Below are positions 14,969 through 48,455 of a stretch of 64,000 nucleotides of DNA, in pieces. Source of the DNA: Thermicanus aegyptius DSM 12793 (lineage in GTDB: Bacteria > Bacillota > Bacilli > Thermicanales > Thermicanaceae); assembly GCF_000510645.1 (NCBI RefSeq), contig NZ_KI783301.1:2914698-2978697 (forward strand), read 5' to 3'. The position numbers and the translations under genes are program-made. Position 1 is the stretch's first letter. Each line of letters starts with the position of its first letter. Under the pieces are notes generated by a model. The model made no database searches. It saw nothing but the letters and a program-made list of their open reading frames with translations, and had not been told where the DNA came from.

Positions 14969-14987
14969 TGTTATTTCCTCCTTTAAA

Positions 14988-15677
14988 TTAGTGCGAAATT
15001 AAAGAAAGCCGCTTATCCAGCGACTCAATGGGTGTACCTGTTTTCTGTTTTGGTTGTTTTGGCAGTTTGCTGATGAGCGAGTTAGTAACCGCCATCCTGC
15101 TAAAAATAAGACTATCCGTCAAATCCGGTGTTTCACTTTCCATGAACATGATTTTGTCTGCAAAACCAAGTTCAATCGCTTTGTTTGCATTCATCCATGA
15201 CTCTGCATCCATTAGATGGGAGAGTTTTGTTCGAGAGAGACCCGTTTTTAACTCATAGGCATTAATAATGCTTTCCTTGACCTCATCCAATAGAGCCTTT
15301 GCCCGCAACATTTCCTCACTGTCACCGATAGCAATTGTTGAGGGGTTATGAATCATAAGCATAGATACAGGAGACATATATACATCTCCACCAGCCATTG
15401 CAATAACGGATGCCGCACTTGCCGCAAGCCCATCAATCTTTACAGTGACTTTTCCGGTATACTCCATCAGCATGTTATAAATCTGAGCTGCTGCGAACAC
15501 ATCACCACCAGGGGAATTAATCCACACCGTAATATCGCCAGTGCCTGCCAGCAGTTCATCCTTAAACATCTTAGGTGTGACCTCATCGCCCCACCACGTT
15601 TCTTCGGATATCACTCCATTTAAATAGAGGGTACGTACTTCATCTGAATCTCGCACCCAGTTCCAGAACTTCCTCAT
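14988..15677 (-). CDS. Head maturation protease, ClpP-related
   Basis: A 229-residue serine protease of the phage ClpP-like (S14) type. INSPGGDVFAAAQIYNML forms the oxyanion region, AASAASVIAMAGGDVYM holds the catalytic serine (near residue 88), MLMIHNP the histidine and LSHLMDAESWMNANKA the aspartate. It cleaves the capsid scaffold domain during head maturation. It ends one base before the start of the portal reading frame's stop region, so portal, protease and capsid form one unit. Confidence 0.92.
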   Translation of the reverse strand: MRKFWNWVRDSDEVRTLYLNGVISEETWWGDEVTPKMFKDELLAGTGDITVWINSPGGDVFAAAQIYNMLMEYTGKVTVKIDGLAASAASVIAMAGGDVYMSPVSMLMIHNPSTIAIGDSEEMLRAKALLDEVKESIINAYELKTGLSRTKLSHLMDAESWMNANKAIELGFADKIMFMESETPDLTDSLIFSRMAVTNSLISKLPKQPKQKTGTPIESLDKRLSLISH

Positions 15678-16922: not shown

Positions 16923-16965
16923 AGGCATCACCTCCGAATATAAACATTGTGCTAACCATTAAGGT

Positions 16966-18570: not shown

Positions 18571-18658
18571 AAACACCGCCCCTTTATGAAAAAGGACAAA
18601 AGAAAAGAGCCTCAATCCTATAGATGAAGCCCTACTTCTTATCCTAGTTTAATTTTAT

Positions 18659-26320: not shown

Positions 26321-26373
26321 ATCCCGGGAGAATTTTTTCTTTTCTTTCGCTATTAAAAGGGTTTAAGGGGGGA

Positions 26374-27984: not shown

Positions 27985-28066
27985 ATTTAACGAAACGAAG
28001 CTTCGTCTCCTTCTTGGTGACGGAGCTTTTAATTTTGGCGGCATGTGGTCCGTATTTGACGCTTAC

Positions 28067-28124
28067 AGAGCACGGTCGCTTAGGTTTCTTTGGCATACTT
28101 GCACCTCCTTTTGCCCATAGAAAA
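28067..28124. repeat. Right copy of the 58-bp direct repeat flanking IS66
   Basis: Identical to 25506-25563. It begins right after the IS66 right end and stops at the A-run that forms the 3' tail of the minus-strand terminator. It contains an orphan ribosome site and the first ten HNH codons, which then run into IS sequence. Confidence 0.9.
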
Positions 28125-28665: not shown

Positions 28666-28883
28666 CGCACCGCCTCCTCTTGTAGCTGTTGAATTAATAT
28701 GTCAGGGTTTAGGGATGTGAGGACATTAAACAATCCAGAATGAAAGAAGCACTCAACCTCACGTTTTGTATATAAAGCAGAATCATTGCGAGGGTGTTTT
28801 GCTAATCTTTTCAGTGCAAAACGATAATCCTTGACCGCCTGTAGAATAATGGCATTCGCCAGTTTTTCAAATGCATCTATCAT
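28662..28883 (-). CDS. Conserved hypothetical phage protein
   Basis: A 73-residue protein (MIDAFEKLANAIILQAVKDY, then RFALKRLAKHPRNDS) overlapping both neighbours by four bases. Similar small proteins lie next to the DUF1492 gene in related prophages. The RFALKRL and CFFHSGLF words are the only conserved-looking parts. Function unknown. Confidence 0.6.
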   Translation of the reverse strand: MIDAFEKLANAIILQAVKDYRFALKRLAKHPRNDSALYTKREVECFFHSGLFNVLTSLNPDILIQQLQEEAVR

Positions 28884-30241
28884 ACAACACCCCTCGCTTT
28901 CCCAAGATTTGCTTTGACCGCATTGATAAGATCAGATTGTGTCTTTTCCTTTCGTTTCAAGGCCCTCATCACATCTTCATCAATCGTTCCTTTAGTAATA
29001 ATGTGATGGATAACCACCGTTTCATTTTGTCCTTGTCTCCAAAGTCTTGCATTGGTTTGCTGATAGAGTTCTAGACTCCAGGTAAGACCAAACCAAATAA
29101 GTGTTGAACCACCACTTTGTAAGTTAAGGCCGTGTCCTGCTGATGCAGGATGGATAACCGCCACAGAAATATCGCCGTTGTTCCAATCCTTGATATCCTT
29201 GGATGTTTTAATTTCTCTAACATTAAATCTTGCTTTAATACGCTCTAAATCGTGATTATACCAATATGCAATAAGAACAGGTTTGCCGTTTGCACCTTCG
29301 ATTAAATCTTCAAGAGCATCCAGCTTGCGGTCATGGATAATATGAGTATTTTTATCATCATCATAGACAGCACCGTTTGCCATTTGCAGGAGTTTGCCAG
29401 AAAGGACTGCTGCATTCATGGCATCAATCTCCTCATTGGCAAGCTCAAGAACCATCTCTTCACGAAAGTGATCATATACGGATTGTTCTTTGTCATTCAG
29501 ATACACGGGCACTTCATTGATAACGCACTCTGGCATTTTCAGAAAATCGACTGATTTCATGGAAATGGTGATATCCGAAATGAGCCGATATATGGCATCT
29601 TCAGCACCTGGCAATGGTTTATATGAAAATACGATTTGCTGATTACGTTTATCCGGTGTAAAAAAGGAATTGCGGTAGTGAGTTATGTATCTGCCGAGTC
29701 TTTTACCCATGTCGAGAATACGAAACTCTGCCCACAAATCCATTAACCCATTACTGGAGGGTGTACCCGTAAGACCCACGATCCGTTTTGCCCTCGGCCT
29801 TACTTTTAGTAAACTTTTAAATCTTTTTGCACCATAGGATTTAAAGGATGATAGCTCATCGATTACCACCATGTCATAGTCAAAAGGGATGCCACTTTTG
29901 TTTACCAACCAGTCCACATTTTCTCTATTTATAAGGTAGACACTTGCAGGTTTTCTAAGAGCCGCCAATCGCTCCTGCTCTGTTCCAATCGCTACCGAAA
30001 ACTCCACCCTTTTTAAATGCTCCCACTTATTTATCTCAGCTGGCCAAGTATCCCTTGCTACCCGAAGTGGAGCAATGACCAGAACCTTTCCAATTTCAAA
30101 ACTATCAAGACATAAATCAAATATAGCTGTTAGAGTAATGACGCTTTTGCCAAGACCCATTTCTAAAAACACCGCAGCGATGGGATGCTCAAGTATGAAG
30201 TTCGTTGCATAGGTCTGATATTTATGAGGATTGTATTTCAC
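28880..30241 (-). CDS. SNF2/DEAD-type helicase
   Basis: A protein of about 453 residues. ATPase motifs: LEMGLGKSVITL (Walker A), VVIDELSSFK (DExx variant), VGLTGTPSSNGLMDLWAEF and, late, AGHGLNLQSGG with LYQQTNARLWRQGQ (motifs V and VI). This phage SNF2-like helicase belongs to the replication block with VapE and VRR-NUC. The likely start is GTG at 30241 (VKYNPHKYQTY), preceded by GGAGGG at seven bases. Longer forms overlap the VRR-NUC gene without a ribosome site. Confidence 0.88.
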   Translation of the reverse strand: MKYNPHKYQTYATNFILEHPIAAVFLEMGLGKSVITLTAIFDLCLDSFEIGKVLVIAPLRVARDTWPAEINKWEHLKRVEFSVAIGTEQERLAALRKPASVYLINRENVDWLVNKSGIPFDYDMVVIDELSSFKSYGAKRFKSLLKVRPRAKRIVGLTGTPSSNGLMDLWAEFRILDMGKRLGRYITHYRNSFFTPDKRNQQIVFSYKPLPGAEDAIYRLISDITISMKSVDFLKMPECVINEVPVYLNDKEQSVYDHFREEMVLELANEEIDAMNAAVLSGKLLQMANGAVYDDDKNTHIIHDRKLDALEDLIEGANGKPVLIAYWYNHDLERIKARFNVREIKTSKDIKDWNNGDISVAVIHPASAGHGLNLQSGGSTLIWFGLTWSLELYQQTNARLWRQGQNETVVIHHIITKGTIDEDVMRALKRKEKTQSDLINAVKANLGKARGVV

Positions 30242-30503
30242 CCAGTATCCCTCCAATCTGCTTAACATCATCAATGACATAGCAGGTAAAGCCTAACTTC
30301 TGTAATTGCTTTATTCTTCTAATCTGTAACGGACGAGGTTTCTTTCCGGGAGCCTTTAATTCCACAAAAGCCATCTTCCCATATGGTAAAAGCACAAGAC
30401 GGTCTGGCATTCCATCTAAACCTGGACTAACAAACTTCGCCGCAATACCTCCTATCTTTTTTACCTCAGCCACCAGTTTCTTTTCGATATATTTTTCAAG
30501 CAT
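30222..30503 (-). CDS. VRR-NUC domain nuclease
   Basis: A 93-residue stand-alone VRR-NUC protein. The PD-(D/E)xK core is visible as GLDGMPDRLVLLPYGKMAFVE with the following LKAPGKKPRPLQ. These small Holliday-junction-type nucleases accompany SNF2 helicases in phages. ATG at 30503 follows GGGAGGTATTT. It overlaps the helicase gene by about 20 bases. Confidence 0.9.
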   Translation of the reverse strand: MLEKYIEKKLVAEVKKIGGIAAKFVSPGLDGMPDRLVLLPYGKMAFVELKAPGKKPRPLQIRRIKQLQKLGFTCYVIDDVKQIGGILGEIQSS

Positions 30504-30722
30504 AAATACCTCCCATATAAAAAGGCTCGGAACAAGAAAACAACTTTGACCCAATTTTCCTATACGCGCGCGTATGCGTGTATGCACAGGCTACTATTAC
30601 TTCTTTTTACTATTTATAAATAAATAGGATACTTCTTGTTCCACTTGTTCCGAACCGTTGATTTTCCTTATCATTACTAGCTTTAGGGAAAGAAAGAGTA
30701 TGGGAACAAGGTAAGGTACAAC

Positions 30723-33089
30723 TTAGCGTTGTTCCTCGACTCGGGAATAAGCTCGTTGCTTTCCGTAGACAGGAAACGTCACAACACCATTCTTGTTCCC
30801 AGTGTACTTGTTCCACTCACTGATCTTTCTCATAATGGCACCGATGGCATAGGAATCTGAAGGCTTTAGCATGGATGCCTCTTTACCGAAACACTCACAC
30901 CAAATTTCCATATTACAGACAAGGGTCCTTTTTACGGTTCCAACACGGGTGCCGCCGCCAAATTCGCTACCGCCGAGAAAATTTCTACGCTCGTACAAAG
31001 ACATCGTGTCCCAATCATCCGGCAAGAGCGTATCCAAGTAAGTACGAACCAGTCCTTCTCGTTCATCTGTTTCCATAGCATCTGCCTGTTCACTAGTTGC
31101 CATGGATACATCATCACCTTCAAGGTAGAGTTTTTCGCCCTTCTCATATAATACTAGTGCCTCTGCCCAAATCTGCTGTACTTCTTCTTTAGTCATCTGC
31201 CAAGCTTTCTTTCTACTGTTACCACTAATGCGGACTGGCCAAAATCTGCGGTTGCCCGTAATATCACGAAGAAAACCGCTTTCCGCATTGGTAGAACCTA
31301 CAATCACGCATTGACGGGGATGGCTTTCGACGTTGACCCCATAACTTGCACGGTACTTATCATCTGCCCTTGAAATAAAGGACTTCACAACCTCCACATC
31401 CGTCTTACGCATTCCAGCAAGCTCTCCTAGTTCCAGCAACCAATATCCCTGAAGTTTCTCAGCCCCGGATTTATCCTTCATATCTGTAATAGTCAAACTG
31501 TCTGAAAACCAGTCTCCAGCAAGCTTAGCAAAGAAGGTTGATTTACCGATTCCTTGAGGACCGTTTAAGATAAGAACACTATCAAACTTTGTACCTGGTC
31601 TATAAATACGGGCTACCGCTGCAACCATCGTTTTGCGTATGACTGCTTTTGTATAGGAATTATCTGTTGCACCGAAATAATCAATTAATAGATTATCTAC
31701 TCGGCTAATACCATCCCATTTTGGCAGGGAGTCCAGATATTCCTTAACAGGATGGTAGGCTCGTTCTGACGCTACAGCTAACACAGCATCTTTGGTCTTG
31801 GTAGGGGAATAGACTCCGTATTTACTGCTTAAGTACACCTTAAGAAGCGCGTTATCCGAATCATTCCAACCAGCCTTGATCTGTTCCCAAGGCAGACCAC
31901 CTTTGGCATCAATCCCATCACGGTGGCAGTTGAAAGCGATATGCTGTAAATTCTCATCATGCCGAATAATCAGAACGATGTTATCCAATGTGTCTTTTAT
32001 TCGGCCTTGCTTATCCAATTCCAAAGCTGTCTGCCAATCCTCATCACTAAACTCCTCTTCAGCCTGAGCCTGTCTTTCCTTTGCGAACTCAGCTTTTACC
32101 GCTTCATCTTTTATAGCAAACTCGCACATTGCCACAAAAGATGGCATCTTACCAGGAACCGTGGTGGTAGAAGCTTTATCATCTAAAGAACCAAATTTAT
32201 GAATACGAACAAGATCAAAAGCATTGAGGAGCAGGCTGCTTGCTGGGTCTGTGGCATGGTGGCTGTATGCAAATTTATCATCATAGATAATCACACCCGC
32301 ACTGCTGTCAGCTGGAATATAATCGTACCGTCCTTCCATAGCAGAGGGGGCATAAACAGCACCTAAGAATTTTTCTATAGCTTCACGAACGAAATAGGCA
32401 CGACAGAATGTTCCTACCACACCTTCCTTTAAAAGCGGATCTGCTTGTTCTTTCAGACTTCGATTAATCACTTCAGACTGCCTGCTTGATACCGGCCAAG
32501 TTGATGTATCCCGCCAGTTTTGATATTTTGAAAGATAAACATCCGGGTCAAGTAATGCTCCATCCTGCTCTTCGTAGACAAATTCACCATTAGAGGAAGT
32601 GGATGGCCAATACATAAGGCGATGTGCTTCATATGTCGTATCATCGAAAAGGTCCATACCAATTTCTTTTGCCACCATACGTCCAACGGCTGCATATTCT
32701 TCTTCACTGATCTCACGAGCAAGAGGAACGATAAGTCTGAGTCTCGGATTTTCCGGTGTGTGCTTATGGGTGGAGTAAACACAACATTTGAAATCGAAAA
32801 GTATTGAGATTTGTTCCCAAATATCCGGTCTACCGTAATCCATATCAAGGGTAAGCAAAGAGCGACATAGAACATTGCCCTTCTTTCGCCTTCCTTCTTT
32901 TAAATGTCCTCCGACAAAGCCACCCACGTCTTTGATATCATCTTGTTGACCTTTTTTAAGTTTCCGATATTCCTCTACCGTTTCTGTAGTACGTTGTGTT
33001 GTCTTTACACGGGAGCAAAAATCCTCCCAGGATATATCTTTGTTTTTCCATTTTCTATCCATCCGGCTATTGCCTACTGCAATTTTCAT
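30723..33089 (-). CDS. VapE-like primase/helicase protein
   Basis: A 788-residue protein. The N-terminal part (about 1-200) resembles a PrimPol-like primase (SLLTLDMDYGRPDIWEQI, then CCVYSTHKHTPENPRLRLIVPL). The C-terminal half is a virulence-associated E superfamily 3-like ATPase with LNGPQGIGKSTFFAKLAGDW (Walker A), LLELGELAGM (Walker B-like), GSTNAESGFL and NRRFWPV. It probably primes and unwinds DNA for phage replication. GGAGGTCG precedes the ATG. Confidence 0.88.
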   Translation of the reverse strand: MKIAVGNSRMDRKWKNKDISWEDFCSRVKTTQRTTETVEEYRKLKKGQQDDIKDVGGFVGGHLKEGRRKKGNVLCRSLLTLDMDYGRPDIWEQISILFDFKCCVYSTHKHTPENPRLRLIVPLAREISEEEYAAVGRMVAKEIGMDLFDDTTYEAHRLMYWPSTSSNGEFVYEEQDGALLDPDVYLSKYQNWRDTSTWPVSSRQSEVINRSLKEQADPLLKEGVVGTFCRAYFVREAIEKFLGAVYAPSAMEGRYDYIPADSSAGVIIYDDKFAYSHHATDPASSLLLNAFDLVRIHKFGSLDDKASTTTVPGKMPSFVAMCEFAIKDEAVKAEFAKERQAQAEEEFSDEDWQTALELDKQGRIKDTLDNIVLIIRHDENLQHIAFNCHRDGIDAKGGLPWEQIKAGWNDSDNALLKVYLSSKYGVYSPTKTKDAVLAVASERAYHPVKEYLDSLPKWDGISRVDNLLIDYFGATDNSYTKAVIRKTMVAAVARIYRPGTKFDSVLILNGPQGIGKSTFFAKLAGDWFSDSLTITDMKDKSGAEKLQGYWLLELGELAGMRKTDVEVVKSFISRADDKYRASYGVNVESHPRQCVIVGSTNAESGFLRDITGNRRFWPVRISGNSRKKAWQMTKEEVQQIWAEALVLYEKGEKLYLEGDDVSMATSEQADAMETDEREGLVRTYLDTLLPDDWDTMSLYERRNFLGGSEFGGGTRVGTVKRTLVCNMEIWCECFGKEASMLKPSDSYAIGAIMRKISEWNKYTGNKNGVVTFPVYGKQRAYSRVEEQR

Positions 33090-33520
33090 AAACTTTCGAC
33101 CTCCTCATGCTCCGGACTAAAATATCTAACCGTTTGTCTGCGTTTCTTGGCGACTTCAATTTCCCTCTCCATACCGTTTGAGATGGTATTGCCCAGCACC
33201 CACACCTCGGAACATTTGCCCATGAGCACAATGTCCATAAATATGGCAAGCTCCCGTTCCTCTGGATTTTCATCATCCATAAACTGTGGAAACATAAGGT
33301 GGGGAGCAATTGGAATACAGTTACTTTCCAAGGCAAACCTGCAAAAACTACGAGCCTTTTTAACGTTTTCTTCTACATCACCGGAATAGGGAGAACAGAT
33401 ATATACAAGCGGCTTAAAGGCAGATTTTTTCTCTGCCTTTTCCTTTCTCATTATGTTGGTCAGTGCTTCATGGGGAGTTGGGTCATGGTATCCTTCATGG
33501 TTAAATTTGTTGATTCCCAT
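33086..33520 (-). CDS. DUF4406-type nucleoside 2-deoxyribosyltransferase-like protein
   Basis: A protein of 144 residues. VYICSPYSGDVEENVKKARSF and PIAPHLMFPQFMDDENPEE match DUF4406, a Rossmann-like fold related to nucleoside deoxyribosyltransferases. NTISNGMEREIEVAKKR follows. It may act in nucleotide metabolism; the substrate is unknown. Start ATG 33520 follows GGAGGGTGTGTA. The gene overlaps the VapE start by four bases. Confidence 0.75.
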   Translation of the reverse strand: MGINKFNHEGYHDPTPHEALTNIMRKEKAEKKSAFKPLVYICSPYSGDVEENVKKARSFCRFALESNCIPIAPHLMFPQFMDDENPEERELAIFMDIVLMGKCSEVWVLGNTISNGMEREIEVAKKRRQTVRYFSPEHEEVESL

Positions 33521-34332
33521 TACACACCCTCCATTTCTATTTGAGGCAAAATACCGTCTGCCTTCATCAGTTCGTAAATGAAGAGTCTGCCTTTTTGTGT
33601 CCAATATGTATGGACCTTTGTATGCTGTTGCCCGTTACTGCCAAGGTAGTTATGTGTCTTAGTACTGGTGTATCCTTTTTCCGCATACTTCTGATATAAA
33701 AGCCAAATGCCGCCTTGTTTAAATTGGATGCCCTTTTTATTAAGATAGCGGTTCATCCAAATAGCTGACTTACCATAATCTTTGGCGATTGCTGATGTGG
33801 AAATGAGGTCTTTGCAATTTAAAACCACATCGTAATAAGACACTTTCGGTTTCATTTCTGCAATTTGCTGATTCTGAACAGCAACTGTACCTTCAAGCAC
33901 TTTATTTTGTTTCCTTACTTGTGTTAGCTGTTGATTGGCAATCTGAAGTGCCCTTGCCATGATTGCTTCTGGAGAGTTCCATCGTCTTTCAATTTCAAGA
34001 AAGTACCCGCGGCATTGTTTTCCTTTTGGAGTACGCTGTATCATGCATAGCTCTTTTGCCATATCAATTGTTATTTGGTGGTCAACAGCTGGTCTTCCAC
34101 CTGTACTTTCCGACAGAAATGTCGAAAAGTCCGTACCCTCCACAAATCCATACTCACACATTCTTGGAAACCATTTATCATATTTCGGAAGTTTAGAATG
34201 AATGTCATTTGAATCCGTTTCCAGAAACATATCCACTATATCTGTAACAAAATGCATTGTGCTCATAAGTTCCTTGACAAATTGGAATTGATCTAAAGAA
34301 TTTCCTTTCCAAATCTTTCGTAATGTCATCAC
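33520..34332 (-). CDS. Phage antirepressor with AntA-like and KilAC domains
   Basis: A 270-residue protein. Residues about 50-120 match an AntA/AntB-type domain (YDKWFPRMCEYGFVEGTDFS, then STGGRPAVDHQITIDMAKEL). Residues about 150-265 match KilAC (KVSYYDVVLNCKDLISTSAI, then LNKKGIQFKQGGIW and YTSTKTHNYLGSNG). The first 50 residues do not look like the family, and no ribosome site precedes the ATG. The true 5' end may be lost or rearranged. The domain would counter a repressor, yet no repressor gene is present nearby. Confidence 0.8.
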   Translation of the reverse strand: MMTLRKIWKGNSLDQFQFVKELMSTMHFVTDIVDMFLETDSNDIHSKLPKYDKWFPRMCEYGFVEGTDFSTFLSESTGGRPAVDHQITIDMAKELCMIQRTPKGKQCRGYFLEIERRWNSPEAIMARALQIANQQLTQVRKQNKVLEGTVAVQNQQIAEMKPKVSYYDVVLNCKDLISTSAIAKDYGKSAIWMNRYLNKKGIQFKQGGIWLLYQKYAEKGYTSTKTHNYLGSNGQQHTKVHTYWTQKGRLFIYELMKADGILPQIEMEGV

Positions 34333-34436
34333 ATTGTAAATGCAAGAATATGTAGTTTGATTTTTATTTCAGCCTCACGATACATCTATGATTTTGCGGA
34401 ATTTTTCTTTATTAAAAATATTACATAGTCCTTCAA

Positions 34437-34670
34437 CTATTTTATAGCTCGTGTAATTAGTGCTAAACAACAATTAAAAAGATAGTCATAATAACGGAAT
34501 TTAGTTATTTCAATCTCATGATGTCGTATACGATATTTATTTCCAATGTCCGTCAACATCTTAAATTCATTATGAAACAGATCAGTAAAATCATCATTTC
34601 CTTTTGCCATATCACTTACTATTTTTTCTGATAAATAGTTCTTATCTAAATCTAGTATGCCTTTAATCAT
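34437..34670 (-). CDS. Hypothetical small protein at the prophage edge
   Basis: A 77-residue protein (MIKGILDLDKNYLSEKIVSD and onwards) with mixed charged helices, not recognised. AAAGAAGTTTA precedes the ATG. It lies in AT-rich DNA between the last recognisable phage gene and the surface-protein cluster. It could belong to either. Confidence 0.4.
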   Translation of the reverse strand: MIKGILDLDKNYLSEKIVSDMAKGNDDFTDLFHNEFKMLTDIGNKYRIRHHEIEITKFRYYDYLFNCCLALITRAIK

Positions 34671-34868
34671 TAAACTTCTTTACTTGTCAAACTGTTACAT
34701 GATAGACGACAGCACAATCACATAGTCAACATTGACATAATATAGCATAAACACTTTCACTGAGTGTCATATATCTCATCTGCTTTAATAATCGTTATAG
34801 ATTTGATTCTATGTTTGAAAGCGTGAGATATCATTAAGCATTAATACTTGAAAGGAGGAATTTACTCT

Positions 34869-35201
34869 ATGTCAATGCCCAATATACCTAACATAAATGC
34901 AACCATCAGTATCACTCTTGAAGATTCTGTCAATCTTTTGCTTGCTTCCGTGGCCTTTGAGGAACTGGGGCTTTCTCATATCATCAACGCCGAAGCTGAA
35001 AAGATTCAGTATGCCCTTGGAACGCTCAGAGGACAGAATCCCCCCACTACGCCCCCGACGATTGATGAACTTCTAGGAATCAATGAGTCGGTTAGTCAAA
35101 CATTGAGAAACGTCATTAAAAACCAAATGCTTCTTCATTTTAAGTTGAAAGATACGCTATCCATTTCGACATCCACAACGACGACTACCGGGACGCCATA
35201 A
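34869..35201 (+). CDS. Small protein with 'EELGLSHIINAEAEKIQ' module, paralogue 1
   Basis: A 110-residue protein. Its core (LLASVAFEELGLSHIINAEA followed by EKIQYALGTL) is a helical module that, from memory, recurs in surface or spore-associated proteins of Bacillales and Paenibacillaceae, often next to collagen-like or DUF11 proteins. The C-terminus is a Thr/Ser-rich tail (STSTTTTTGTP). No signal peptide is seen. Start ATG 34869 follows GGAGG at ten bases. It shares a 40-base identical DNA block with the next gene. Confidence 0.65.
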   Translation: MSMPNIPNINATISITLEDSVNLLLASVAFEELGLSHIINAEAEKIQYALGTLRGQNPPTTPPTIDELLGINESVSQTLRNVIKNQMLLHFKLKDTLSISTSTTTTTGTP

Positions 35202-35337
35202 CTTTGTAATTGCAAATTTTAATGAGTAGATAAGCAGACACATATGCACCGCCTTGTTATTCATTTAGTTTTGAGCGTTGAACCAATGTCGAAAAAACAT
35301 CTTGTGATATAAAAACCAAATAGAAAGGAGTCCAATT

Positions 35338-35739
35338 ATGTCATTTCCAAACATGCCTAATGTAACTCCACATATCAATATTAACCGAGATAGCGTCATC
35401 AATCTTTTGTTGGCGTCCATAGCATTGGAAGAATTAGGATTGTCTCATATCATCAACGCCGAAGCTGAAAAGATTCAGTATGTCCTTGGAACACTTGACG
35501 GGCAAACCCCACCAGAGCCCGCTACAATTGATGATTTATTGAAAATCAACAATTCGGTGAATCAGACGCTCAAAGATACTATTAAAACCCAGATACTTCT
35601 TCAGTTCCAACTCGAGGATCTCATCAATTATGAACAGCTTGGCATACACGTTAATACTGCAAGCGTAACGGCCGTATTCGAAGGCAACACCTACTACGCC
35701 AGCGACAGTGCATATTATCATACAACGGGAGGAATGTAA
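35338..35739 (+). CDS. Small protein with the same module, paralogue 2, hybrid C-terminus
   Basis: A 133-residue paralogue of the preceding gene. The module is nearly identical (EELGLSHIINAEAEKIQYVL). After residue 100 it switches to NTASVTAVFEGNTYYASDSA, which resembles the end of the DUF11 repeats of the 810-residue neighbour (VNTATATGEYDGNTFSDTNS). This suggests an internal deletion that joined the module to the tail of a DUF11 repeat. AAAGGAGTCCAATT precedes ATG. Confidence 0.65.
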   Translation: MSFPNMPNVTPHININRDSVINLLLASIALEELGLSHIINAEAEKIQYVLGTLDGQTPPEPATIDDLLKINNSVNQTLKDTIKTQILLQFQLEDLINYEQLGIHVNTASVTAVFEGNTYYASDSAYYHTTGGM

Positions 35740-35741
35740 TA

Positions 35742-35888
35742 ATGTCAACGAATTTAAACTGCATTAACACTCCTGTTAAATGGAGTAACATTCAGAAAAG
35801 GTTTCACTATAACCTCAACGATGTTCGTAATATGACGATTATTGGCTCGATTTTCGTTGAAAAGGAGGGAATGGAAAAATGGCAGTAA
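35742..35888 (+). CDS. Possible 48-residue protein overlapping the next start
   Basis: ATG at 35742 follows GGGAGGAATGTAATA, and the frame runs 48 codons (MSTNLNCINTPVKWSNIQKR and onwards) to TAA at 35886-35888. Its last codons contain the ribosome site and overlap the start of the 810-residue gene by ten bases. That points to translational coupling. No relative is recognised; it may be only a leader peptide. Confidence 0.4.
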   Translation: MSTNLNCINTPVKWSNIQKRFHYNLNDVRNMTIIGSIFVEKEGMEKWQ

Positions 35889-38311
35889 ACCTTGGACCAA
35901 TAGGCATTTACAATGTGTTTGTGATACAAGATATGAATATGAGCAATACAGATGCCGAAGGAAGAGTAGCCGTAGGAGGTAATGTTACCTTGCAAAACTA
36001 CGGAATAGGCGCTTCCATCTCACCATTACCACCCTTTGGAACGGATGCCTCTTTTGTAATTGGCGGTAATGTAAATGTTACAAGTGGTTCGAATTTTAGT
36101 GGCAATACTATCAGAAGAGCATCTAGTTCAGTAATCAATTATACTATGGGAAACCCAAACGGTACTTTTGTAACTGGGAATCCAATCAATTTTACAGAGA
36201 AAGCAACTTATTTAAAATGCGCAAGTACCTTTTGGGGCAATCTGACGGCAACTGGTACTGCAAGTGTAAGCTTTGGGGGATTAACTCTAACCGGTACCGA
36301 GCCAGATTTGAATATATTTGAAATAAATGCAAATGATGTAGCAGGGTCAGGATTGTCACTGAATCAGTTGAATGGCATCAATATTGTAGCTCCACTAAGT
36401 TCTACAGTTTTAATCAATGTCATAGGAACAAACATTGCATTTGGTAGTTACCAAATTTTTAGAAATGGAGTAACCGCAACTCGAAGCGATGCACGATTAA
36501 TCCTTTGGAATTTTCCTCAAGCAGCAACATGGACTAATAGTACGACCGCAATATATGGCTCGGTATTGGCCCCATTTGCAGATGCAACTACCGTATCTAG
36601 CCAAATTAATGGCAATATTATTTTTAACTCTCTTACGGGAACTTCCGAAAGTCATAATGAATTGTTTGAAGGAACTCTGCCTGATCCGCAGTCATGCTTA
36701 ACTGAAATCGCTTCCATCTCGATAGAAAAAGAGGTTTCGCCTGATAATGGTGTAACATGGTTCTCGGCAGATACTGCCCCAGGACCGGATGTGCCTTCTA
36801 ACACAAATCCGCGTTTTCGTTTCACTGTTACAAATAATGGAACTGCTACACTAACCAATGTTATAGTTACGGACGATGTTTACGGTTTAATTGGAACAAT
36901 AGCTACACTGGAGAAGTCCGCTTCGGACCAATTCATTTTCGATGGAACATGGGTACTTGGTCAAAACGTGAATACCGCGACGGCAACTGGTGAATATGAC
37001 GGCAATACCTTCTCTGACACCAATTCGACATATTGGGTAGGTGTGGAAGCGGCACTTCCGGCGATTACCGTGAAAAAGGAAGTATCGCCAGACAATGGGG
37101 TTACATGGTTCGATGCAAACAAGCTTCCAGGCCCGAATGTAGTTTTTCCCAACAATCCGCAGTTTCGATTTACAGTTACAAACACAGGAAATGTTACGTT
37201 GACCAATGTTACCGTGACGGATAATGTTTATTTAACGGTTATCGGTCCAACGGATTTGAACCCCGGCGAATCGGAAACAGTAACAATTAACGGCACATGG
37301 GCACTTGGCCAGCAGTCCAATATTGCGACGGCAACATGTGATCAGGGGGTTACCCATGAGAACACGGCATTTTGGTTTGGGGTTGAAGCGGCCGCACCGT
37401 CCATTGAAGTAGACAAATACGTTTCACCAGATAATGGGGTCACATGGTTTGAAGCAAATGCTCCTGTAGGCCCACCTGTACCACAAGGCACAGATCCACA
37501 ATTTCAATTCACAGTTGTTAATACGGGCAATATCACGTTGACCAATGTTATAGTAAATGACAATGTTTATGGCTTAGTGCTTGGACCAATCGCAAGTTTA
37601 GCCCCCGGTGAATCATCATCCACAATAGTTGTTGGTACATGGGCACTTGGGAATCAAATGAATATTGCAACAGCAACATCTGACGAAGGAGTATCCGATG
37701 CTGATGTCGCATATTGGTTCGGCGAAGAAGCTCCACAGCCAGAAATTAATATAATAAAAGAGGTATCTAACGATAACGGGATTACCTGGTATGACGCGGA
37801 TACACCTCCAGGATTAAATGTTGCCATAGGGACCAATCCTTTGTTTAGAGTTACAGTTACTAATGTGGGAGACGTAACCTTAACCAATGTCCAAGTAACG
37901 GACGATATATACGGTTTTGTTGGGACCATGCCCGTTCTGCCACCGGGAGATTCAGCTAGTTGGATTATTGTCGGTACCTGGGTGCTTGGACAAAACGTGA
38001 ATGCCGCAACGGTAACTGGTGAATATGACGGCAATACTCTCTCTGACACCAATTCGACATATTGGTTTGGCGTCATCCCTTCCATCACCATTGAGAAATA
38101 TGTTTCGGTAGATAATGGAGCAACATGGCAGGAAGCCGATACGTCTCCAGGACCGTTGCTTCCAGACGGAGTAACACCGCAATTTAAATTCATCGTAACA
38201 AATACTGGTGATGTGACGCTTACCAATATTGAAGTAACCGACAGCGTATTCGGCGTTATTGGAACCCTCCCATCACTTGATCCCGGTGATTCCAACGAAT
38301 GGATTATTTAA
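35879..38311 (+). CDS. Choice-of-anchor-A protein with five DUF11-like repeats, C-terminally truncated
   Basis: An 810-residue protein. Residues 1-275 form a choice-of-anchor-A domain (NLGPIGIYNVFVIQDMNMSN, then AEGRVAVGGNVTLQNYGIG). Five repeats of about 113 residues follow, starting near 279, 394, 506, 620 and 735. Each begins like (S)IxxEKEVSPDNGVTWF and contains FTVTNTGNVTLTNVxVTDNVYG. The fifth stops after about 75 residues at GDSNEWII, where the others continue into GTWxLGxxxNxATAT. No signal peptide or cell-wall anchor remains. A surface or spore-coat role is inference. AAGGAGGGAATGGAAAA precedes ATG. Confidence 0.75.
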   Translation: MAVNLGPIGIYNVFVIQDMNMSNTDAEGRVAVGGNVTLQNYGIGASISPLPPFGTDASFVIGGNVNVTSGSNFSGNTIRRASSSVINYTMGNPNGTFVTGNPINFTEKATYLKCASTFWGNLTATGTASVSFGGLTLTGTEPDLNIFEINANDVAGSGLSLNQLNGINIVAPLSSTVLINVIGTNIAFGSYQIFRNGVTATRSDARLILWNFPQAATWTNSTTAIYGSVLAPFADATTVSSQINGNIIFNSLTGTSESHNELFEGTLPDPQSCLTEIASISIEKEVSPDNGVTWFSADTAPGPDVPSNTNPRFRFTVTNNGTATLTNVIVTDDVYGLIGTIATLEKSASDQFIFDGTWVLGQNVNTATATGEYDGNTFSDTNSTYWVGVEAALPAITVKKEVSPDNGVTWFDANKLPGPNVVFPNNPQFRFTVTNTGNVTLTNVTVTDNVYLTVIGPTDLNPGESETVTINGTWALGQQSNIATATCDQGVTHENTAFWFGVEAAAPSIEVDKYVSPDNGVTWFEANAPVGPPVPQGTDPQFQFTVVNTGNITLTNVIVNDNVYGLVLGPIASLAPGESSSTIVVGTWALGNQMNIATATSDEGVSDADVAYWFGEEAPQPEINIIKEVSNDNGITWYDADTPPGLNVAIGTNPLFRVTVTNVGDVTLTNVQVTDDIYGFVGTMPVLPPGDSASWIIVGTWVLGQNVNAATVTGEYDGNTLSDTNSTYWFGVIPSITIEKYVSVDNGATWQEADTSPGPLLPDGVTPQFKFIVTNTGDVTLTNIEVTDSVFGVIGTLPSLDPGDSNEWII

Positions 38312-38329
38312 CTGATTCAAAATACAATG

Positions 38330-38563
38330 AAATATGCTTCTTAGATAACAGAGAGCAATGTTTTTCTATACGTTTTCGGGGTTTTGGCATACTTGGATAG
38401 TAACTGCCTTTGTGAGGTTTTCGAATCTTCAAATCTAGTGTACCTAGCCATGTGTCCAATTCATGATGATAACCATTTCTTTGCGTGGCGCGTTCCGGAC
38501 TTCGTTTGTATCAACCTGGGACGCTGCCACAACTTCCAATAATGAATTAACAAGAACATTCAT
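38330..38563 (-). pseudogene. Remnant of an IS256 (mutator) family transposase
   Basis: On the minus strand three frames together give the N-terminal pattern of mutator-type transposases. MNVLVNSLLEVVAASQVDTN comes first, then, frameshifted, RSPERATQRNGYHHELDTWL with GTLDLKIRKPHKGSYYPS and PRKRIEK. A last frame gives LLSVI-stop-EAYF, where the family has LLSVIQEAYF. It carries at least two frameshifts and a nonsense codon. It begins about 20 bases beyond the stop of the DUF11 protein gene. The rest of the 454-base gap to 38765 holds nothing else I recognise. Confidence 0.7.
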
Positions 38564-38765
38564 AACCTCTCTCAAAAATCAAGATGACCGTCAGATACAC
38601 TCCTGCGCAAAAGATTTAAAAATGAAATTCTATTTATAAAAGCTCGGCGCGATTTTACATCACTACTATAAGAGTGGACTATAAAATCCAAGTGTAGATG
38701 TCTTGATTCGAATTTTGCAACATTATAATAGCAAGATTTTCTTCCACAAGTTGTGCTATATCATT

Positions 38766-39575
38766 TTAATCTCTATATTTTCCATTATAAGATGTACCCT
38801 TAATCAGCTTACTAAATTCTTCTTCGCTTATGGCAAAATCACGCACATCTTTTCCATATTGATCATTTGCCCATTCTCGTGTGTACTGCATATTATAGGA
38901 GGTTAGCCCGTCATTTAGGTTAAAATTGATATATTCTACGTTTCCAATCAAGGCAAACATAATGATAGCATTAACTTCAAACTGTTGTTGATTTGCTTCA
39001 TCACTATAAAAATTTCTAGTCTCTGTATCCGTTTGTAAATTTACAGTTATTGCAAAAGGCTCACTATCAGTAGAAAGCTCAAAGTAATCGTAATCGATGT
39101 TTTTAGGGAACGTTAATAAAAAGATGATACCTCCAACTTTTGAGTTATTGCCTACATACTCGGTTTTATTTTTTAAAAACTGAGAAACAAGAGGGTCATC
39201 ACCTGATTTAGTTGTAATTAAATTGGTAACTAGAGCAACCACAAGTACTACAATTGCAACTAAAGTAACAGCAATCACCCAAAATTTTGGCTTTCTATAA
39301 TTTAACACGTTTTTAATCCTCCCCTTTACATTTCCCTTGTCAAAAGCTAGAGAAGTTCCTCTTAAAATACGCTTTCCGATAGCAAGCAACAGCAATGGAT
39401 TAACATAAGTTTTTTGTGTTTTCATGCATACTTTTAATACGCTTTCATCACAGAAAAGTTCCATATCCTTACTCATTAAAAAAAATGAAAGCCATACAAG
39501 AGAATTAAGCCAATGTAATATTAAGAAGGCTAATATCTTAAAGTAACTATTACATCTACCCCTATAGCAATAGTA
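38766..39575 (-). pseudogene. 5'-truncated BlaR1/MecR1-like (M56) membrane protein remnant
   Basis: The frame open from about 39575 gives FKILAFLILHWLNSLVWLSF, then MSKDMELFCDESVLKV, LAFDKGNVKGRIKNVLNYRK and PKFWVIAVTL. This is the second half of an M56 peptidase domain with its last membrane helix, followed by an extracytoplasmic C-terminal part. The HExxH part and upstream helices are absent, and the frame is closed upstream by TGA at 39576-39578. The open frame from ATG 39476 is not a complete gene. The family senses beta-lactams or cell-wall stress, but this copy cannot. Confidence 0.7.
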
Positions 39576-39706
39576 TCAATTTCTAATAGCTTTTCATAGA
39601 GATTATGGCAAATGTCAGATTGGTAAGCACTATAATCGGCTTTATCCCAAGCTATTACAAGGTATCGTTTTATTCTTTGAACGTTAAAATCATTATTTAG
39701 TGACAT
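39530..39706 (-). CDS. Short unassigned open frame
   Basis: A 58-codon frame (MSLNNDFNVQRIKRYLVIAW and onwards) overlaps the 5' side of the M56 remnant in another frame. It has no clear ribosome site. It might be a piece of another decayed gene. Function unknown. Confidence 0.2.
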   Translation of the reverse strand: MSLNNDFNVQRIKRYLVIAWDKADYSAYQSDICHNLYEKLLEIDTIAIGVDVIVTLRY

Positions 39707-40267
39707 GCAAATAAAATTTGAAGCAACTCATCTGTTGCTCCATTAACCTGTGATAATCTATTTTAATAAGATGAATTGTTTCTCAATTAAAATGTACAAA
39801 ATTCCGGCTTAGACTCATAAGCTATAAAGTACATTGAAACAGTTTGCATTAAAGTGAATTATTTACTTTGCATGCGCCTTATCTAAGTTATCGTAATCAC
39901 CATTTCTACGAAAAGCTAAGTTATGTTAAAACCACAGAATACAAACAAACCAATAAATTAATATTCTTTAAATATGAAAAAATTTAATTGCAGCTAGGAC
40001 AAAACCCTCCTTTAAAACATTAAAAAAGCCAGTGAGGTTTTACTCGTCGTAAAATTTCACTGGCTTTTCATTTTTCAAAATAAAATAAAGATTATTTCTG
40101 ATAAAATGAATTTTTCTACCTAATCATATGGAATGAAGGATTCTTAACATGAATCAATTAACTTTACCTTTTCGATTTAATAGTAAAATTATAAATACAC
40201 ATGAGTTGATAGGATTCATTTTCCCTCTAATTTTTATGCATTACCTCATTCTACTGTCCCTGTCCTG
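39707..40267. other. AT-rich noncoding stretch
   Basis: Contains no supported gene. The only clear structure is the terminator at 40024-40075. A 46-codon plus-strand frame at 40149-40289 starts like a transposase (MNQLTLPFRFNSK) but is too short to call. Confidence 0.5.
40024..40075. terminator. Long bidirectional intrinsic terminator
   Basis: AAAAGCCAGTGA pairs with TCACTGGCTTTT and an inner TTTTAC pairs with GTAAAA around a TCGTC loop. T-runs follow on both strands. It is downstream of the dus gene on the minus strand. Confidence 0.8.
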
Positions 40268-41230
40268 TCAACACTTTTTTTCAAAATGATCAAGTAATTG
40301 ACGTACTTCATCCGTTGACTTTGTGTTCATCAATTGATTTCTTAACATGCTTGCTCCAGGAAATCCTTTGACATATATTTTGAAAAAACGATGGAGCCCA
40401 GTAATTGGACGTGGCAGTTTTTCTAAATAGTAGTCATAAAGATCAAGATGATATCTTAGAAGATTGAGATACTCCATACTACTATGCTCTTTCGGCTCTT
40501 TTTCAAAGGCAAATGGGTTTTTAAAAATTCCGCGCCCAATCATAACCCCATCCACACCATATTGACGAACAAGTTTCAGTCCTGTTTCACGATCAGGAAT
40601 GTCCCCGTTGATGGTTAGTAGCGTATTCGGTGCCACACGATCACGTAATTTCTTGATTTCTGGAATCAGCTCCCAGTGTGCCTCTACTTTGCTCATTTCC
40701 TTTCTTGTACGTAAATGAATAGAAAGATTTGCGATATCCTGTTTTAAAATATGCGTTAGCCACTCCTCCCATTCATTTACATCCGAATAGCCAAGTCGTG
40801 TTTTCACACTGACAGGCAGTCCACCCGCTTTTGCTGCTTCAATAAGTTCTGCTGCGACTTCTGGACGCAGAATAAGTCCACTACCTTTCCCTCTCGATAC
40901 CACATTCGGTACAGGGCAGCCCATATTAATATCAAGGCCTTTAAATCCTAGCTCTTTCATCCCAATACTCATTTGTCGGAAATATTCGGGCTTATCTCCC
41001 CAAATATGTGCCACCATTGGCTGTTCATCTTCTGTAAACAACAAACGACCCCGAACACTGTTCTTTCCCTCAGGATGACAATAGCTATCCGAGTTTGTAA
41101 ACTCTGTAAAAAATACATCCGGTCGACCTGCTTTACTTACTACATGGCGAAAAACAACATCCGTCACATCTTCCATTGGCGCAAGTATAAAAAATGGTCG
41201 TGGTAAATCACGCCAAAAATTATCAATCAT
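40268..41230 (-). CDS. dus: tRNA-dihydrouridine synthase
   Basis: A flavoenzyme of 320 residues that reduces uridine in tRNA to dihydrouridine. [17 protein letters not shown] is the FMN-binding N-terminus. [20 protein letters not shown] carries the catalytic cysteine, VSVKTRLGY and [11 protein letters not shown] follow, and [18 protein letters not shown] is the phosphate loop. ATG at 41230 ([14 protein letters not shown]) is preferred over the slightly longer frame. The gene is AT-richer than the core region, so it may be part of the acquired island or from a different lineage. Confidence 0.92.
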
Positions 41231-41847
41231 TGCAAACTCAAATCCTCTCATTACTGATACAACTTTAAACTATCTGTCAGTCAAAAATATAAAGTGAAAC
41301 TTTTAATCACTGGGGTTTCTTCATCCTCCACCGAACTAGAGAAACTCAGGTTAAAGGCGCCATGTCCTATGACACCTGAAGAACCAACATCTTATTAGCC
41401 TGAACCAATTGGGTTTTTATGGGCAATTGATTCCTTTCCTAACTTCTTTGCTTTCGCTAAATTTTGAGGTAGAAGCATTACAACCCATTAATGCGGGATA
41501 AAACCGCTTTTTTTACACTAACATCATGTTTCCTAACTTACTATCATACACTAGTATATTTGAATATGGATCATTTATGAAAATCGCCATGTATATTTTA
41601 ACGAAAATCAGTCCTGAATGGTATTTTCACAAACGAAAAAGCAGATAGTATAGACTTTTTACGATATCAACTGCTTTTATGTATATGATATTTGAAGTAT
41701 CAATTCGTGTGTATTTTACTTTAATTTTTCTTTATATTAAAGTCTCCCATACAAAAATCGAAGCATAAAAAGGCTCCTCGCCGCCATAATGGTAGTTGAG
41801 GAGCCTTGGTTTGTCTAATACAAACTGGGATTTATCTTTTTTTGAAC
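41231..41847. other. Noncoding stretch between dus and the XRE regulator
   Basis: About 617 bases with no supported gene. It holds the terminator at 41767-41807 and a weak GCGG-ataaaa-CCGC hairpin followed by T7 near 41493. The rest shows no feature I can identify. Confidence 0.5.
41767..41807 (-). terminator. Intrinsic terminator of the XRE regulator gene
   Basis: On the minus strand AAGGCTCCTC pairs with GAGGAGCCTT and the hairpin ends in a T-run. It lies 40 bases downstream of the regulator stop. Confidence 0.8.
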
Positions 41848-42531
41848 TTATTTTACAATTTCAATTCGTTCATACTCCGTTCCGGGATTTTTCTGAACAG
41901 CTTTAAAAAATAAAGTCTTATGAACAATTTCATCTGGATTCAGTGAACTGTATGATTTCTCATAACTAAATCTGGGCACCTGGTTGAATTGAGTGACTGC
42001 AAGATAATCTGAAATAGTAAAAATTGCAAATAATAGAATGGCACATCCGACAACACTCAATATACGTAAGCTTCTCTTTACGAATACAGATTTAATCATG
42101 AAGTAAGCTCCAATTATTAAAATGATACTTCCGATAATTGAATAAATACTTCCCCAGCTGCTATCATTGGGGAATATCGCTAAGGCCGAAATAATGATGA
42201 ATATACCGAATAATGACATCAGATAACTAATCACTTTTTGTTTTCCGTACTTTATCTCGTTTTGTCCATATTCTGCCATTTTAATAGCAGTATCTCTTGT
42301 CTCTTGATTCATATTCTCGCTTTTCCTTTCTCCATTGACAATCTCAGGAATACTAACATCATAAAAATCTGCTATCTCGATGAGCAGACCTATATCTGGC
42401 ATATTCCTGCCGGTCTCCCATCTTGATACTGTTCTGCCAGAGACATTCAGCTTTTCAGCCAATTGCTCCTGCGTCAAATCTTTTTCTTTTCGAAGCTCTT
42501 TTAGGAACACTCCGATTTTGATTTGATCCAT
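41848..42531 (-). CDS. XRE-family regulator with membrane-spanning C-terminus
   Basis: A 227-residue protein. The N-terminal helix-turn-helix (GVFLKELRKEKDLTQEQLAE, then LNVSGRTVSRWETGRNMPDI) binds DNA. The middle and end contain three or four hydrophobic segments (VISYLMSLFGIFIIISALAI, SIYSIIGSIILIIGAYFMI and SVVGCAILLFAIFTISDYL). Such membrane-tethered XRE proteins are common in Firmicutes and often respond to envelope stress. No partner operon is adjacent. Confidence 0.85.
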   Translation of the reverse strand: MDQIKIGVFLKELRKEKDLTQEQLAEKLNVSGRTVSRWETGRNMPDIGLLIEIADFYDVSIPEIVNGERKSENMNQETRDTAIKMAEYGQNEIKYGKQKVISYLMSLFGIFIIISALAIFPNDSSWGSIYSIIGSIILIIGAYFMIKSVFVKRSLRILSVVGCAILLFAIFTISDYLAVTQFNQVPRFSYEKSYSSLNPDEIVHKTLFFKAVQKNPGTEYERIEIVK

Positions 42532-42854
42532 ATGGATGACCTCCTTTTCTCTGCCAGATTACTACCAGCAGGCATTTTTTAACACGACACAAAGCGAGAA
42601 ATGCCCTGTTAATGCCTATAGACAACCTTGTCTAATTGCTATATTTCTCTATTTTCTGCTCAGACATCTAAATCACAGCCCGAGCTCGATGTTATCCAAA
42701 TCACTAACTCAATCCTAACGCAAAAACATCCCAATCGGCTACTCAAACCCTCCGAAGAAAAGTGTAGATAAGTTTTCTTAGAGTGATAGTTCGATTCTCA
42801 CGTTCAAAGCAAGCCTCCTCCTGCGGCGCTTACGCTCAGACTTCCGAAAAGTCT
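42532..42854. other. Noncoding boundary between AT-rich island and GC-richer core
   Basis: A 323-base stretch with no supported gene. Base composition changes sharply near 42.8 kb. A promoter for the XRE gene must lie at its left side but no clear boxes are visible. Confidence 0.5.
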
Positions 42855-44288
42855 TTACTTCAGGCAATTTTTGTTGGTCATCCCTTTTACCCTTGACATC
42901 AAGGCAACGCACTCCACATGCGCCGTCTGCGGGAACATATCGACCGGCTGGATCCACTTCACCTCGTAGCCCTTCTCCATGAGATAGGCGGTGTTCTTCG
43001 CCAGTGTGGAGGGATTGCAGGAAACATAGACGAGGCGTGCAGGGCGTACCCTAACGATGGCATCCATCATTCCCTGTCCCATTCCGGTGCGGGGCGGATC
43101 CACCACCACCACATCGGGGCGAAAGCCCTCCTTCACCCAGCGGGGCATGATCTCCTCTGCCCTGCCCGCCGTAAAATGAACATGGGAAAATCCGGCTACT
43201 TTCGCGTTCTCCCGGGCATCCGCCACCGCCTCAGGAACCTCTTCGATCCCTCGGATCTCCTTCGCATCCGGGGCGAGCCAGAGGGCGATGCTCCCTACGC
43301 CGGAATAAGCGTCGATCACCCGTTCCGAACCCGTAAGGGAGGCAGCCTCCGCCACCACCCGGTAAAGCTTCACCGTCTGCACCGGATTTAGCTGAAAGAA
43401 CGCCCTGGGGGAGAGACGGTACTCCACCTCCCCCAATCTCTCCATCATCTTCTCCTTTCCCCAGAGGAGAAGGGTGGTGGGGCCAAAGACAAGGGAGGTC
43501 TTCCCCGGATTTACGTTGAGACTTATGCTCGCCAGGTGGGGAATCCGCCGTCTTAATTCTTCGACCACTTCCTCCTCATGGGGGAGCCTGGGTTCTGTGG
43601 CGACCAGGGTGAGCTGGATCTCTCCCGTGGCAAAGCTCACCCTCGCCACCAAGGTGCGGATCAATCCCTTATTCTTCCTTTCATCATAAATGGGCAAGCG
43701 CCACTCCGTGATCACTTCCTTCGCCTTACGGATGGCTTCATTTACCTTTGGATGTTGGATCGGGCAATCGGAGAGGTCCACCAACCGATGGGAACCCGCC
43801 GCATATAGACCGGCGATCACTTTCCCCTTCGCCATGCCCACCTGCAGCTGTCCCTTATTCCGATATCCCCACGGCTCTTCCATGCCGATGATCGGCCGAA
43901 TGGGAGGATGCTTCAATGAAGTGTACCGGACAAAAGCTTCACGCACCTGATCCTCCTTTGCCTTTAATTGGGCCGGATAGGAAAGATGCTGAAGCTGACA
44001 GCCTCCACATTCCGCAGAAATGGGACATGGTGGCGTGCGCCTTTCCGGAGAGGGTTTGATCACCTGAAGAAGTTCCGCATGGGCGAACCGCCTCTCCACC
44101 TTGGTTACCTTCACCTTCACCAACTCGTTGGGAAGGGCTCCCGGAATAAAGAGAACCTGTCGCCTGTCGTATCCGATGCCTTCTCCGTTAATCCCGATTC
44201 TCTTAACGGGCACCGTTAAGATCTCCCCTTCTTTAAACTGGGTGAGACTCTCCTTCCCTCTTGCCAGGGGAAATCCCTCCTTGTGCAT
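42855..44288 (-). CDS. RlmD/RumA-family 23S rRNA (uracil-5)-methyltransferase
   Basis: A 477-residue AdoMet-dependent RNA m5U methyltransferase. The N-terminal TRAM domain (GEILTVPVKRIGINGEGIGY) is followed by a [4Fe-4S] ligand set (CPISAECGGCQLQH). The Rossmann domain includes DAYSGVGSIALWLA, VVVDPPRTGMGQGM and the nucleophile motif VYVSCNPSTLAKN. It probably methylates a 23S rRNA uridine; which position cannot be told. It is next to the M50 protease gene with 8 bases between. Confidence 0.92.
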   Translation of the reverse strand: MHKEGFPLARGKESLTQFKEGEILTVPVKRIGINGEGIGYDRRQVLFIPGALPNELVKVKVTKVERRFAHAELLQVIKPSPERRTPPCPISAECGGCQLQHLSYPAQLKAKEDQVREAFVRYTSLKHPPIRPIIGMEEPWGYRNKGQLQVGMAKGKVIAGLYAAGSHRLVDLSDCPIQHPKVNEAIRKAKEVITEWRLPIYDERKNKGLIRTLVARVSFATGEIQLTLVATEPRLPHEEEVVEELRRRIPHLASISLNVNPGKTSLVFGPTTLLLWGKEKMMERLGEVEYRLSPRAFFQLNPVQTVKLYRVVAEAASLTGSERVIDAYSGVGSIALWLAPDAKEIRGIEEVPEAVADARENAKVAGFSHVHFTAGRAEEIMPRWVKEGFRPDVVVVDPPRTGMGQGMMDAIVRVRPARLVYVSCNPSTLAKNTAYLMEKGYEVKWIQPVDMFPQTAHVECVALMSRVKGMTNKNCLK

Positions 44289-48453: not shown

Positions 48454-48455
48454 CC

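Follow-up and report, generated by a model that had tools for sequence, protein, structure and literature searches.

Why should a prophage carry genes for proteins that appear to belong on a bacterial spore? The question is raised by a cluster of four open reading frames (ORFs) at positions 34,869 to 38,311 of a 64,000-nucleotide (nt) stretch of DNA, referred to throughout as the window, from Thermicanus aegyptius DSM 12793 (contig NZ_KI783301.1, positions 2,914,698 to 2,978,697). A preliminary description had listed two paralogues sharing a EELGLSHIINAEAEKIQ module, a 48-residue frame and a repeat protein, and all of these are confirmed here as ORFs of the window; the incomplete last repeat of the repeat protein (an adhesin in what follows), the matching tail of the second paralogue (module 2) and the coupling of module 2 to the adhesin had gone unseen. 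We assign a probability of roughly 0.64 to a reading in which the cluster is a lysogenic-conversion cassette for the spore surface of the host, comprising an A-ENA fibre subunit and an adaptor whose hairpin completes the last DUF11 domain of the adhesin.

As we envisage it, a temperate phage would carry such a cassette for the spore surface of its host, and the cluster would be expressed in the mother cell. Module 1 would assemble as, or into, A-ENA fibres and module 2 would serve as an A-ENA adaptor, joining the fibre and offering a C-terminal β-hairpin that is taken up by the unfinished last immunoglobulin (Ig)-like (DUF11) domain of the adhesin. The DUF11 stalk would thereby be fixed to the spore fibre with its ice-binding-like head outward. 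Docking of hairpin and acceptor, adhesion, and a benefit to phage or host through spore adhesion or lysogen dispersal are what we infer from this layout.

The module, the adhesin and the missing hairpin

The elements of the cluster are as follows.

34720..34744, + strand: candidate SigK-type promoter (AC at 34720, 14 nt, CATAATATA at 34736)
34869..35201, + strand: module 1, A-ENA-type spore-fibre subunit, 110 residues, with a Thr-rich C-terminus and no donor tail
35338..35739, + strand: module 2, A-ENA-type protein with a C-terminal donor-hairpin tail, 133 residues
35653..35724, + strand: donor-hairpin tail of module 2 (residues 106-129, NTASVTAVFEGNTYYASDSAYYHT)
35742..35888, + strand: 48-codon ORF between module 2 and the adhesin, possibly a leader or remnant
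35879..38311, + strand: adhesin, 810 residues, with a choice-of-anchor-A/ice-binding-like head, four complete DUF11 repeats and one truncated repeat
35909..36673, + strand: choice-of-anchor-A head of the adhesin (residues 11-265)
36728..38095, + strand: four complete DUF11 repeats (residues 284-739)
38096..38308, + strand: truncated last DUF11 repeat, the proposed acceptor (residues 740-810; model positions 1-71 of 116)

The EELGLSHIINAEAEKIQ module has a homologue of known structure in PDB entry 9ihh, 'Ex vivo spore-silk A-ENA fibers', whose identity as an A-ENA spore fibre is taken from that title. A profile containing module 2 finds the entry with an E value of 6.6e-30, module 1 alone matches 9ihh_A with phmmer at E 3.6e-21, and the homology of the two modules to the entry extends over ~95 residues. 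In the AlphaFold2 (AF2) model of a homologue, L015, the module consists of two helices arranged as a helical hairpin, and this part of the model matches 9ihh in Foldseek (E 1.1e-4, template modelling score 0.68 by target length). Since this homology is to a spore-fibre subunit of solved structure, a spore-surface role for modules 1 and 2 is well supported, and the earlier statement that the system has no agreed function is out of date as far as the module is concerned. Neither module finds a family in Pfam, NCBIfam or PHROGs, the lone Pfam line, DNA_circ_N (E 0.17), lying below the cut-off, and none of the four ORFs matches the exosporium leader TIGR03720 (BclA-type) at E ≤1.

Residues 5-265 of the adhesin match TIGR04215, choice-of-anchor A (1.3e-56), and pAdhesive_15 (6.3e-53), and are followed by DUF7507/DUF11 repeats; with TIGR04215 head and DUF11-type repeats both above cut-off, the protein is a choice-of-anchor-A/DUF11 surface protein. 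The sequence GAAAGGAGG lies immediately 5' of the module 1 start. The 48-codon ORF starts 2 nt past the module 2 stop and its end overlaps the adhesin start; since no convincing homologue was found in the fetched loci (best E 0.18), it is unproven as a gene, and we have rejected it as a conserved partner.

The last DUF11 repeat of the adhesin reaches model position 71 of 116 and stops there, immediately short of the hairpin with which the other repeats end, and so has the form of a donor-strand acceptor without its terminal strands. The ~24-residue C-terminal tail of module 2 resembles that hairpin, NTATATGEYDGNTFSDTNSTYWVG in the complete repeats. That the missing strands reside on a partner is indicated by the pattern across the family, the window tail being weak when taken alone.

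The genomes were a sample, with only 20 and 14 regions fetched from the matches in the module and DUF11 samples, respectively. A tail-bearing module followed by a truncated adhesin occurs in the window, in L011, L020, L021, L169 and L170, and twice in L171; the module precedes the adhesin in 8/8 pairs, with a 4-bp gene overlap in 4. In L015, L017, L019 and L066 tail and truncated repeat lie within one chain; L009 and L175 each have the module fused to a single complete repeat. Counting the prophage once, the tail is present in 12 of 13 truncated proteins, either on the adjacent A-ENA protein or in the same chain, and a free tail in 0 of 17 non-truncated DUF11-type proteins (Fisher p 1.5e-7). 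Here non-truncated means that the protein does not stop mid-repeat; L235 and L237 4032-6563 have a partial last DUF11 match followed by other sequence. Left out of the counts are the near-identical prophage copies L006-L008, the re-fetched contigs L168, L174 and L179, DUF11 ORFs cut C-terminally by the contig (L233 1-1413, L238 1-919, L246) and one with masked bases (L238 1813-3228).

Two further comparisons are consistent with the pairing. In the sample chosen by DUF11 only, every genome with a truncated last repeat (G000, G049, G270, G336, G358, G012 and G456) has an A-ENA gene within the locus fetched from it. The 14 loci that lack an A-ENA gene (L173, L233-L244, L246) contain truncated ORFs only where a contig end cuts them. 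Of 275 module ORFs, those matched by a hidden Markov model (HMM) built only from 16 hairpins of complete repeats all bear a tail or are one of the two fusions. Sequencing error or recent mutation as the origin of the truncation is rejected, since the stop is identical in the window and four other prophage copies, and is also ruled out by the nearly equal stopping point in other loci.

Heads differ between the split pairs, being choice-of-anchor A in the window, another in L011, L021 and L169-L171 and a third type in L020, and repeat numbers differ as well. That different heads (window, L020 and others) share one socket suggests a modular display system. The two tandem module-adhesin pairs of L171 (6413-9871) each have the 4-bp overlap, and the second adhesin, headless and 194 residues long, is a minimal pair for structure work. 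Module-free DUF11 proteins end in LPXTG or LPXT-like signals in L173, L234, L235, L236, L237 and L243. L241 (7474-9795) has DUF11 repeats and a similar head, starts much as does L170 of the same genome and ends in a SipL/SPOCS spore domain, which may be another means of anchoring this type of adhesin to the spore.

Recurrence of the module exceeds chance: its family was confirmed in 102 stretches of the genome collection, of which 80 were kept as loci. The module occurs in 35/398 genomes of the phylum sample and 58/398 of the class sample, T. aegyptius being in both, and by record title is found in Bacilli and Clostridia. It also heads collagen-like proteins, with GXX runs in at least 61 of the 233 module-bearing ORFs of the 80 loci, a count that includes the window's own copies and near-identical prophage copies. 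The T. aegyptius genome has two further module copies ~340 kb from the cluster; in 41 related genomes the cluster DNA was found at full length only in its own genome, with short module-type matches in 3 others. Relatives of a glycosyltransferase-tetratricopeptide repeat (TPR) ORF, so labelled by eye and located beside a third A-ENA gene in the related prophages described below, are present in 43 of 96 module loci, and would fit glycosylation of Thr-rich tails.

Candidate promoters and points against the reading

A SigK-type pattern (AC, 14-17 nt, CATANNNT) is found in 72 of 258 module upstream regions of 200 bp, compared with 12.5 expected by shuffling, 20/258 in reverse complements and 58/747 upstream of other ORFs; the distance from CATANNNTA to the downstream start of the family gene is 30-59 nt for 57 of 85 sites. 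Identical or short upstream regions were left out of this test as well. The site in the window scores 9.0, just below the lower quartile of the training sites, 9.6, and the enrichment of the motif across the family points to a putative SigK control of the cluster in sporulation. The 9ihh homology, the SigK-type motifs upstream of the family and N-termini with no evident signal peptides (judged by eye, without a predictor) support the preliminary assignment of the cluster to the spore surface.

A number of observations weigh against the reading given above, beginning with the promoter. The window site lies 133 nt before the module 1 start, beyond the 30-60 nt of the family, and ranks 22 of 127,912 scored positions, 21 scoring higher; a SigE-type pattern is weakly enriched (57/258, with 33.6 in shuffled sequence and 48 in reverse complements). 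In the comparison of truncated and non-truncated proteins the Fisher p overstates independence, because the 12 truncated-plus-tail cases are related by descent, and since a module gene accompanies just 2 of the 17 non-truncated proteins, the fusions, and is absent from the neighbourhood of the other 15, the control cannot separate a link between truncation and tail from one between truncation and an A-ENA neighbour. L245 is truncated and no tail is seen, its 5' part being off the contig, and L172 has a tail without a partner. The orphan module of L172 (8136-8552) lies beside IS21 istA/istB-like ORFs, labelled by eye, with no adhesin seen in the stretch. The HMM of complete-repeat hairpins is weak on the window tail (8.3 bits, E 0.78) and on that of L020 (4.1 bits), and missed the L170 and L015 tails; some of the tails found by the first tail model had been among its own seeds, and the tails of L169 (12.2 bits) and of the second L171 pair (11.3 bits), below the 14-bit line, were accepted by eye.

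Structure predictions add to these points. In the AF2 model of L015, with a mean predicted local distance difference test score (pLDDT) of 48, the module reaches ~70 and the tail region 41-46, and the truncated repeat folds at 80-95; given so confident a fold, completion is maybe not needed for folding. When the L021 pair is read through its stops (AF2, mean 56) the tail hairpin has a pLDDT of 73-76 beside low-confidence stretches and its contacts are unreadable. Among the matches listed by VIA-align for this model, only the complete repeats (model 445-792) match Ig-like domains. Neither model displays docking, and AF2 was rejected as proof of it; docking being unreadable, the split-domain mechanism that we favour rests on sequence and gene order.

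The best of the alternatives, which we nevertheless regard as unlikely, is that ordinary spore-surface genes sit in the prophage by chance and that truncation and tail record an ancestral gene fission, a head having been inserted into a DUF11 domain that was then split and kept by descent, the halves assembling trivially or never. Single chains that hold tail, head and truncated repeat together (L015, L017, L019, L066) speak for it, since, with such versions in existence, the layout is accounted for by a single gene that was split or fused. The split is, however, retained in distant genomes with different heads and repeat numbers, which suggests that both halves are still needed together. That the truncated adhesin instead polymerises head to tail as its own fibre, in the style of a donor-strand pilus, is improbable: donor and acceptor do share a chain in L015, L017, L066 and L019, but the window and six other loci have a free donor on the A-ENA protein and none on the adhesin, so that only capping or side-attachment is possible there.

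Location within a prophage shared by five hosts

The following features define the setting of the cluster.

13775..18615, - strand: prophage capsid, portal and large terminase genes
28880..34332, - strand: replication/regulation genes (SNF2-like helicase, VapE-type helicase/primase, antirepressor), left of the cassette
34022..42921, no strand assigned: right-arm cassette, with 0 mismatches to three other hosts and 2 to R. yapensis
38766..39476, - strand: DUF4825 protein with a weak BlaR1-like N-terminal match, cassette gene
40268..41251, - strand: tRNA-dihydrouridine synthase (Dus), cassette gene
41848..42531, - strand: helix-turn-helix (Cro/CI-like) regulator, cassette gene
42855..44288, - strand: host methyltransferase gene (Pfam tRNA_U5-meth_tr and TRAM), which we take to be of the rlmCD type

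The cluster had been placed next to a prophage edge. This is wrong, as it lies inside the prophage as cargo and another 4.6 kb separate it from the attachment site on the right. Genomes under four different names, Robertmurraya yapensis, R. massiliosenegalensis, Ureibacillus massiliensis and Bacillus sp. PS06, align with window positions 28,067-42,95x at 96.5-99.95%, and to the left the match continues through capsid, portal and terminase at 68-95% by block. To the right it stops at 42,921-42,951, inside the rlmCD-type gene and at the same codons in each host; the last 21 codons of this gene (HVECVALMSRVKGMTNKNCLK) are common to all five prophage hosts, and the right attachment site is placed at 42,921-42,951. 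Structural genes, an integrase (a large serine recombinase gene left of the window), a defined attachment site and several hosts together identify a temperate phage. Compared with phage records, the prophage DNA matched 6, each with less than 80% coverage of the query and with 60-90% identity over 1%.

The identity of the right arm (34,022-42,921) covers intergenic DNA too. Over ~1,005 codons of rpoB the window genome has 66.0-66.7% nucleotide identity to the four others, which are 75.8-84.5% identical among themselves, and PS06 differs by 32-54 per 500 nt across 29,500-33,999. With the right arm near-identical against this background, it has moved recently between related phages or hosts. Contamination is rejected, as the prophage lies in each host's own rlmCD-type gene, the whole proteins of the four having 36-52% identity to that of the window with differing host parts, and left arms and rpoB differ as well.

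In the four other hosts all detected A-ENA matches, 3 per genome, fall within the prophage and none was detected outside it. The third gene of these related prophages is in a 6-9-kb insert that is not in the window. One such gene, with a Cys-rich tail (L106 10226-12279, from G041:C46), lies beside glycosyltransferase-TPR-like and transposase-like ORFs, and the R. yapensis insert contains transposase-like ORFs and a glycosyltransferase (all labels by eye). Beyond these hosts, the module is encoded on five IMG/VR contigs, of which two come from a single genome; PHROGs matches of ten chosen ORFs place phage structural genes close to it on all five, the phage context of L191 resting on one partial tape-measure match. 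These contigs, L188-L192, carry module genes, long ones in L188-L191, and in L188 and L189 the genes are upstream of terminase/portal. Module 2 has no match in 50,697 phage records, and module 1 has 0 relatives in the viral contigs searched with their own peptides.

The same location raises the possibility, to which we attach little weight, that the products are virion or host-entry proteins, for example a spore-binding decoration, rather than spore components of the lysogen. Carriage by this phage and by five further phage contigs would fit, as would the sharing of a contig with tail or lysis genes by the module genes of L190-L192, but the cluster is on the opposite strand to the structural and replication genes, SigK-like motifs are present in upstream regions of the family, and the solved relative 9ihh is titled as ex vivo spore fibres.

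Several neighbouring features deserve mention. The Dus gene travels with the identical phage cassette. An IS66-type insertion in the window prophage (25563-28067) is not in the four related prophages. To the left of the window, at distances of 27.6 and 37.5 kb, are two rlmCD-tail-like sequences (in L109, at 12368-12409 and ~2414-2458) that possibly mark stacked integrations at one site. SpoVAD and DUF421/DUF1657 genes lie right of the prophage, at 47443-49918, and are suggestive of a mobile spoVA operon.

Meaning and relation to known systems

For the broader claim that conversion of the host spore surface is something temperate phages do, by means of A-ENA fibre genes and a split-Ig-socket adhesin with exchangeable heads that have recently spread across distantly related spore-formers, we would give even odds. 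Were the proposal true, spore adhesion and dispersal would partly be a phage trait, the dormant, prophage-carrying spores of the lysogen would gain new surface fibres, and exchangeable adhesins could be mounted on spore fibres through the split DUF11 socket. A mid-repeat stop together with a hairpin tail would provide a sequence signature for finding such pairs. A spore function would also be offered for DUF11-repeat proteins, several of which in the control loci end in sortase-type signals instead.

As far as the literature tells, phage carriage of A-ENA genes and split DUF11 coupling are new, the A-ENA fibre and DUF11 repeats being already known. No report of phage-encoded or prophage-linked spore surface genes was found among the titles listed, weak evidence given that subscription papers and preprints were mostly outside the scope. 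The literature searched did not include a paper on A-ENA or spore silk, and the only one to place DUF11 together with a donor strand, from the parts available, was PMC11952670.

Known spore appendages provide the closest comparisons. The ribbon appendages of Clostridium taeniosporum also derive from spore appendage genes grouped in a cluster, with DUF11 located, the difference being that this cluster is chromosomal and prophages are described separately (PMC5749712, in the parts available). In F-ENA a spore appendage is likewise linked to a large DUF11-repeat protein, F-Anchor-3 of Clostridium aceticum, a DUF11-bearing anchor on spores; F-ENA uses DUF4183 domains, whereas DUF4183, the F-ENA subunit, is not among the Pfam matches of our four ORFs at E ≤1, and F-Anchor-3 has a CsxA-like domain, with no split DUF11 described for it in the available parts of PMC11952670. 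The A-ENA fibre of 9ihh, compared by title, is like the present system in its homology to both modules and in the helical hairpin seen in the AF2 model of a homologue. It differs in that the genes here are phage-borne, that module 2 has a DUF11-like donor tail and that there is a partner adhesin.

Donor-strand pili, those of the chaperone-usher type among them, have an incomplete Ig-like domain to which a partner contributes the missing strand, as proposed for the cluster, which apparently uses a two-strand hairpin and has no evident signal peptides. The SPbeta prophage in spsM is said to affect the spore envelope, the interrupted host gene being restored in sporulation. Both prophages would influence the spore envelope, but SPbeta interrupts a host gene whereas the phage of the window brings surface genes of its own.

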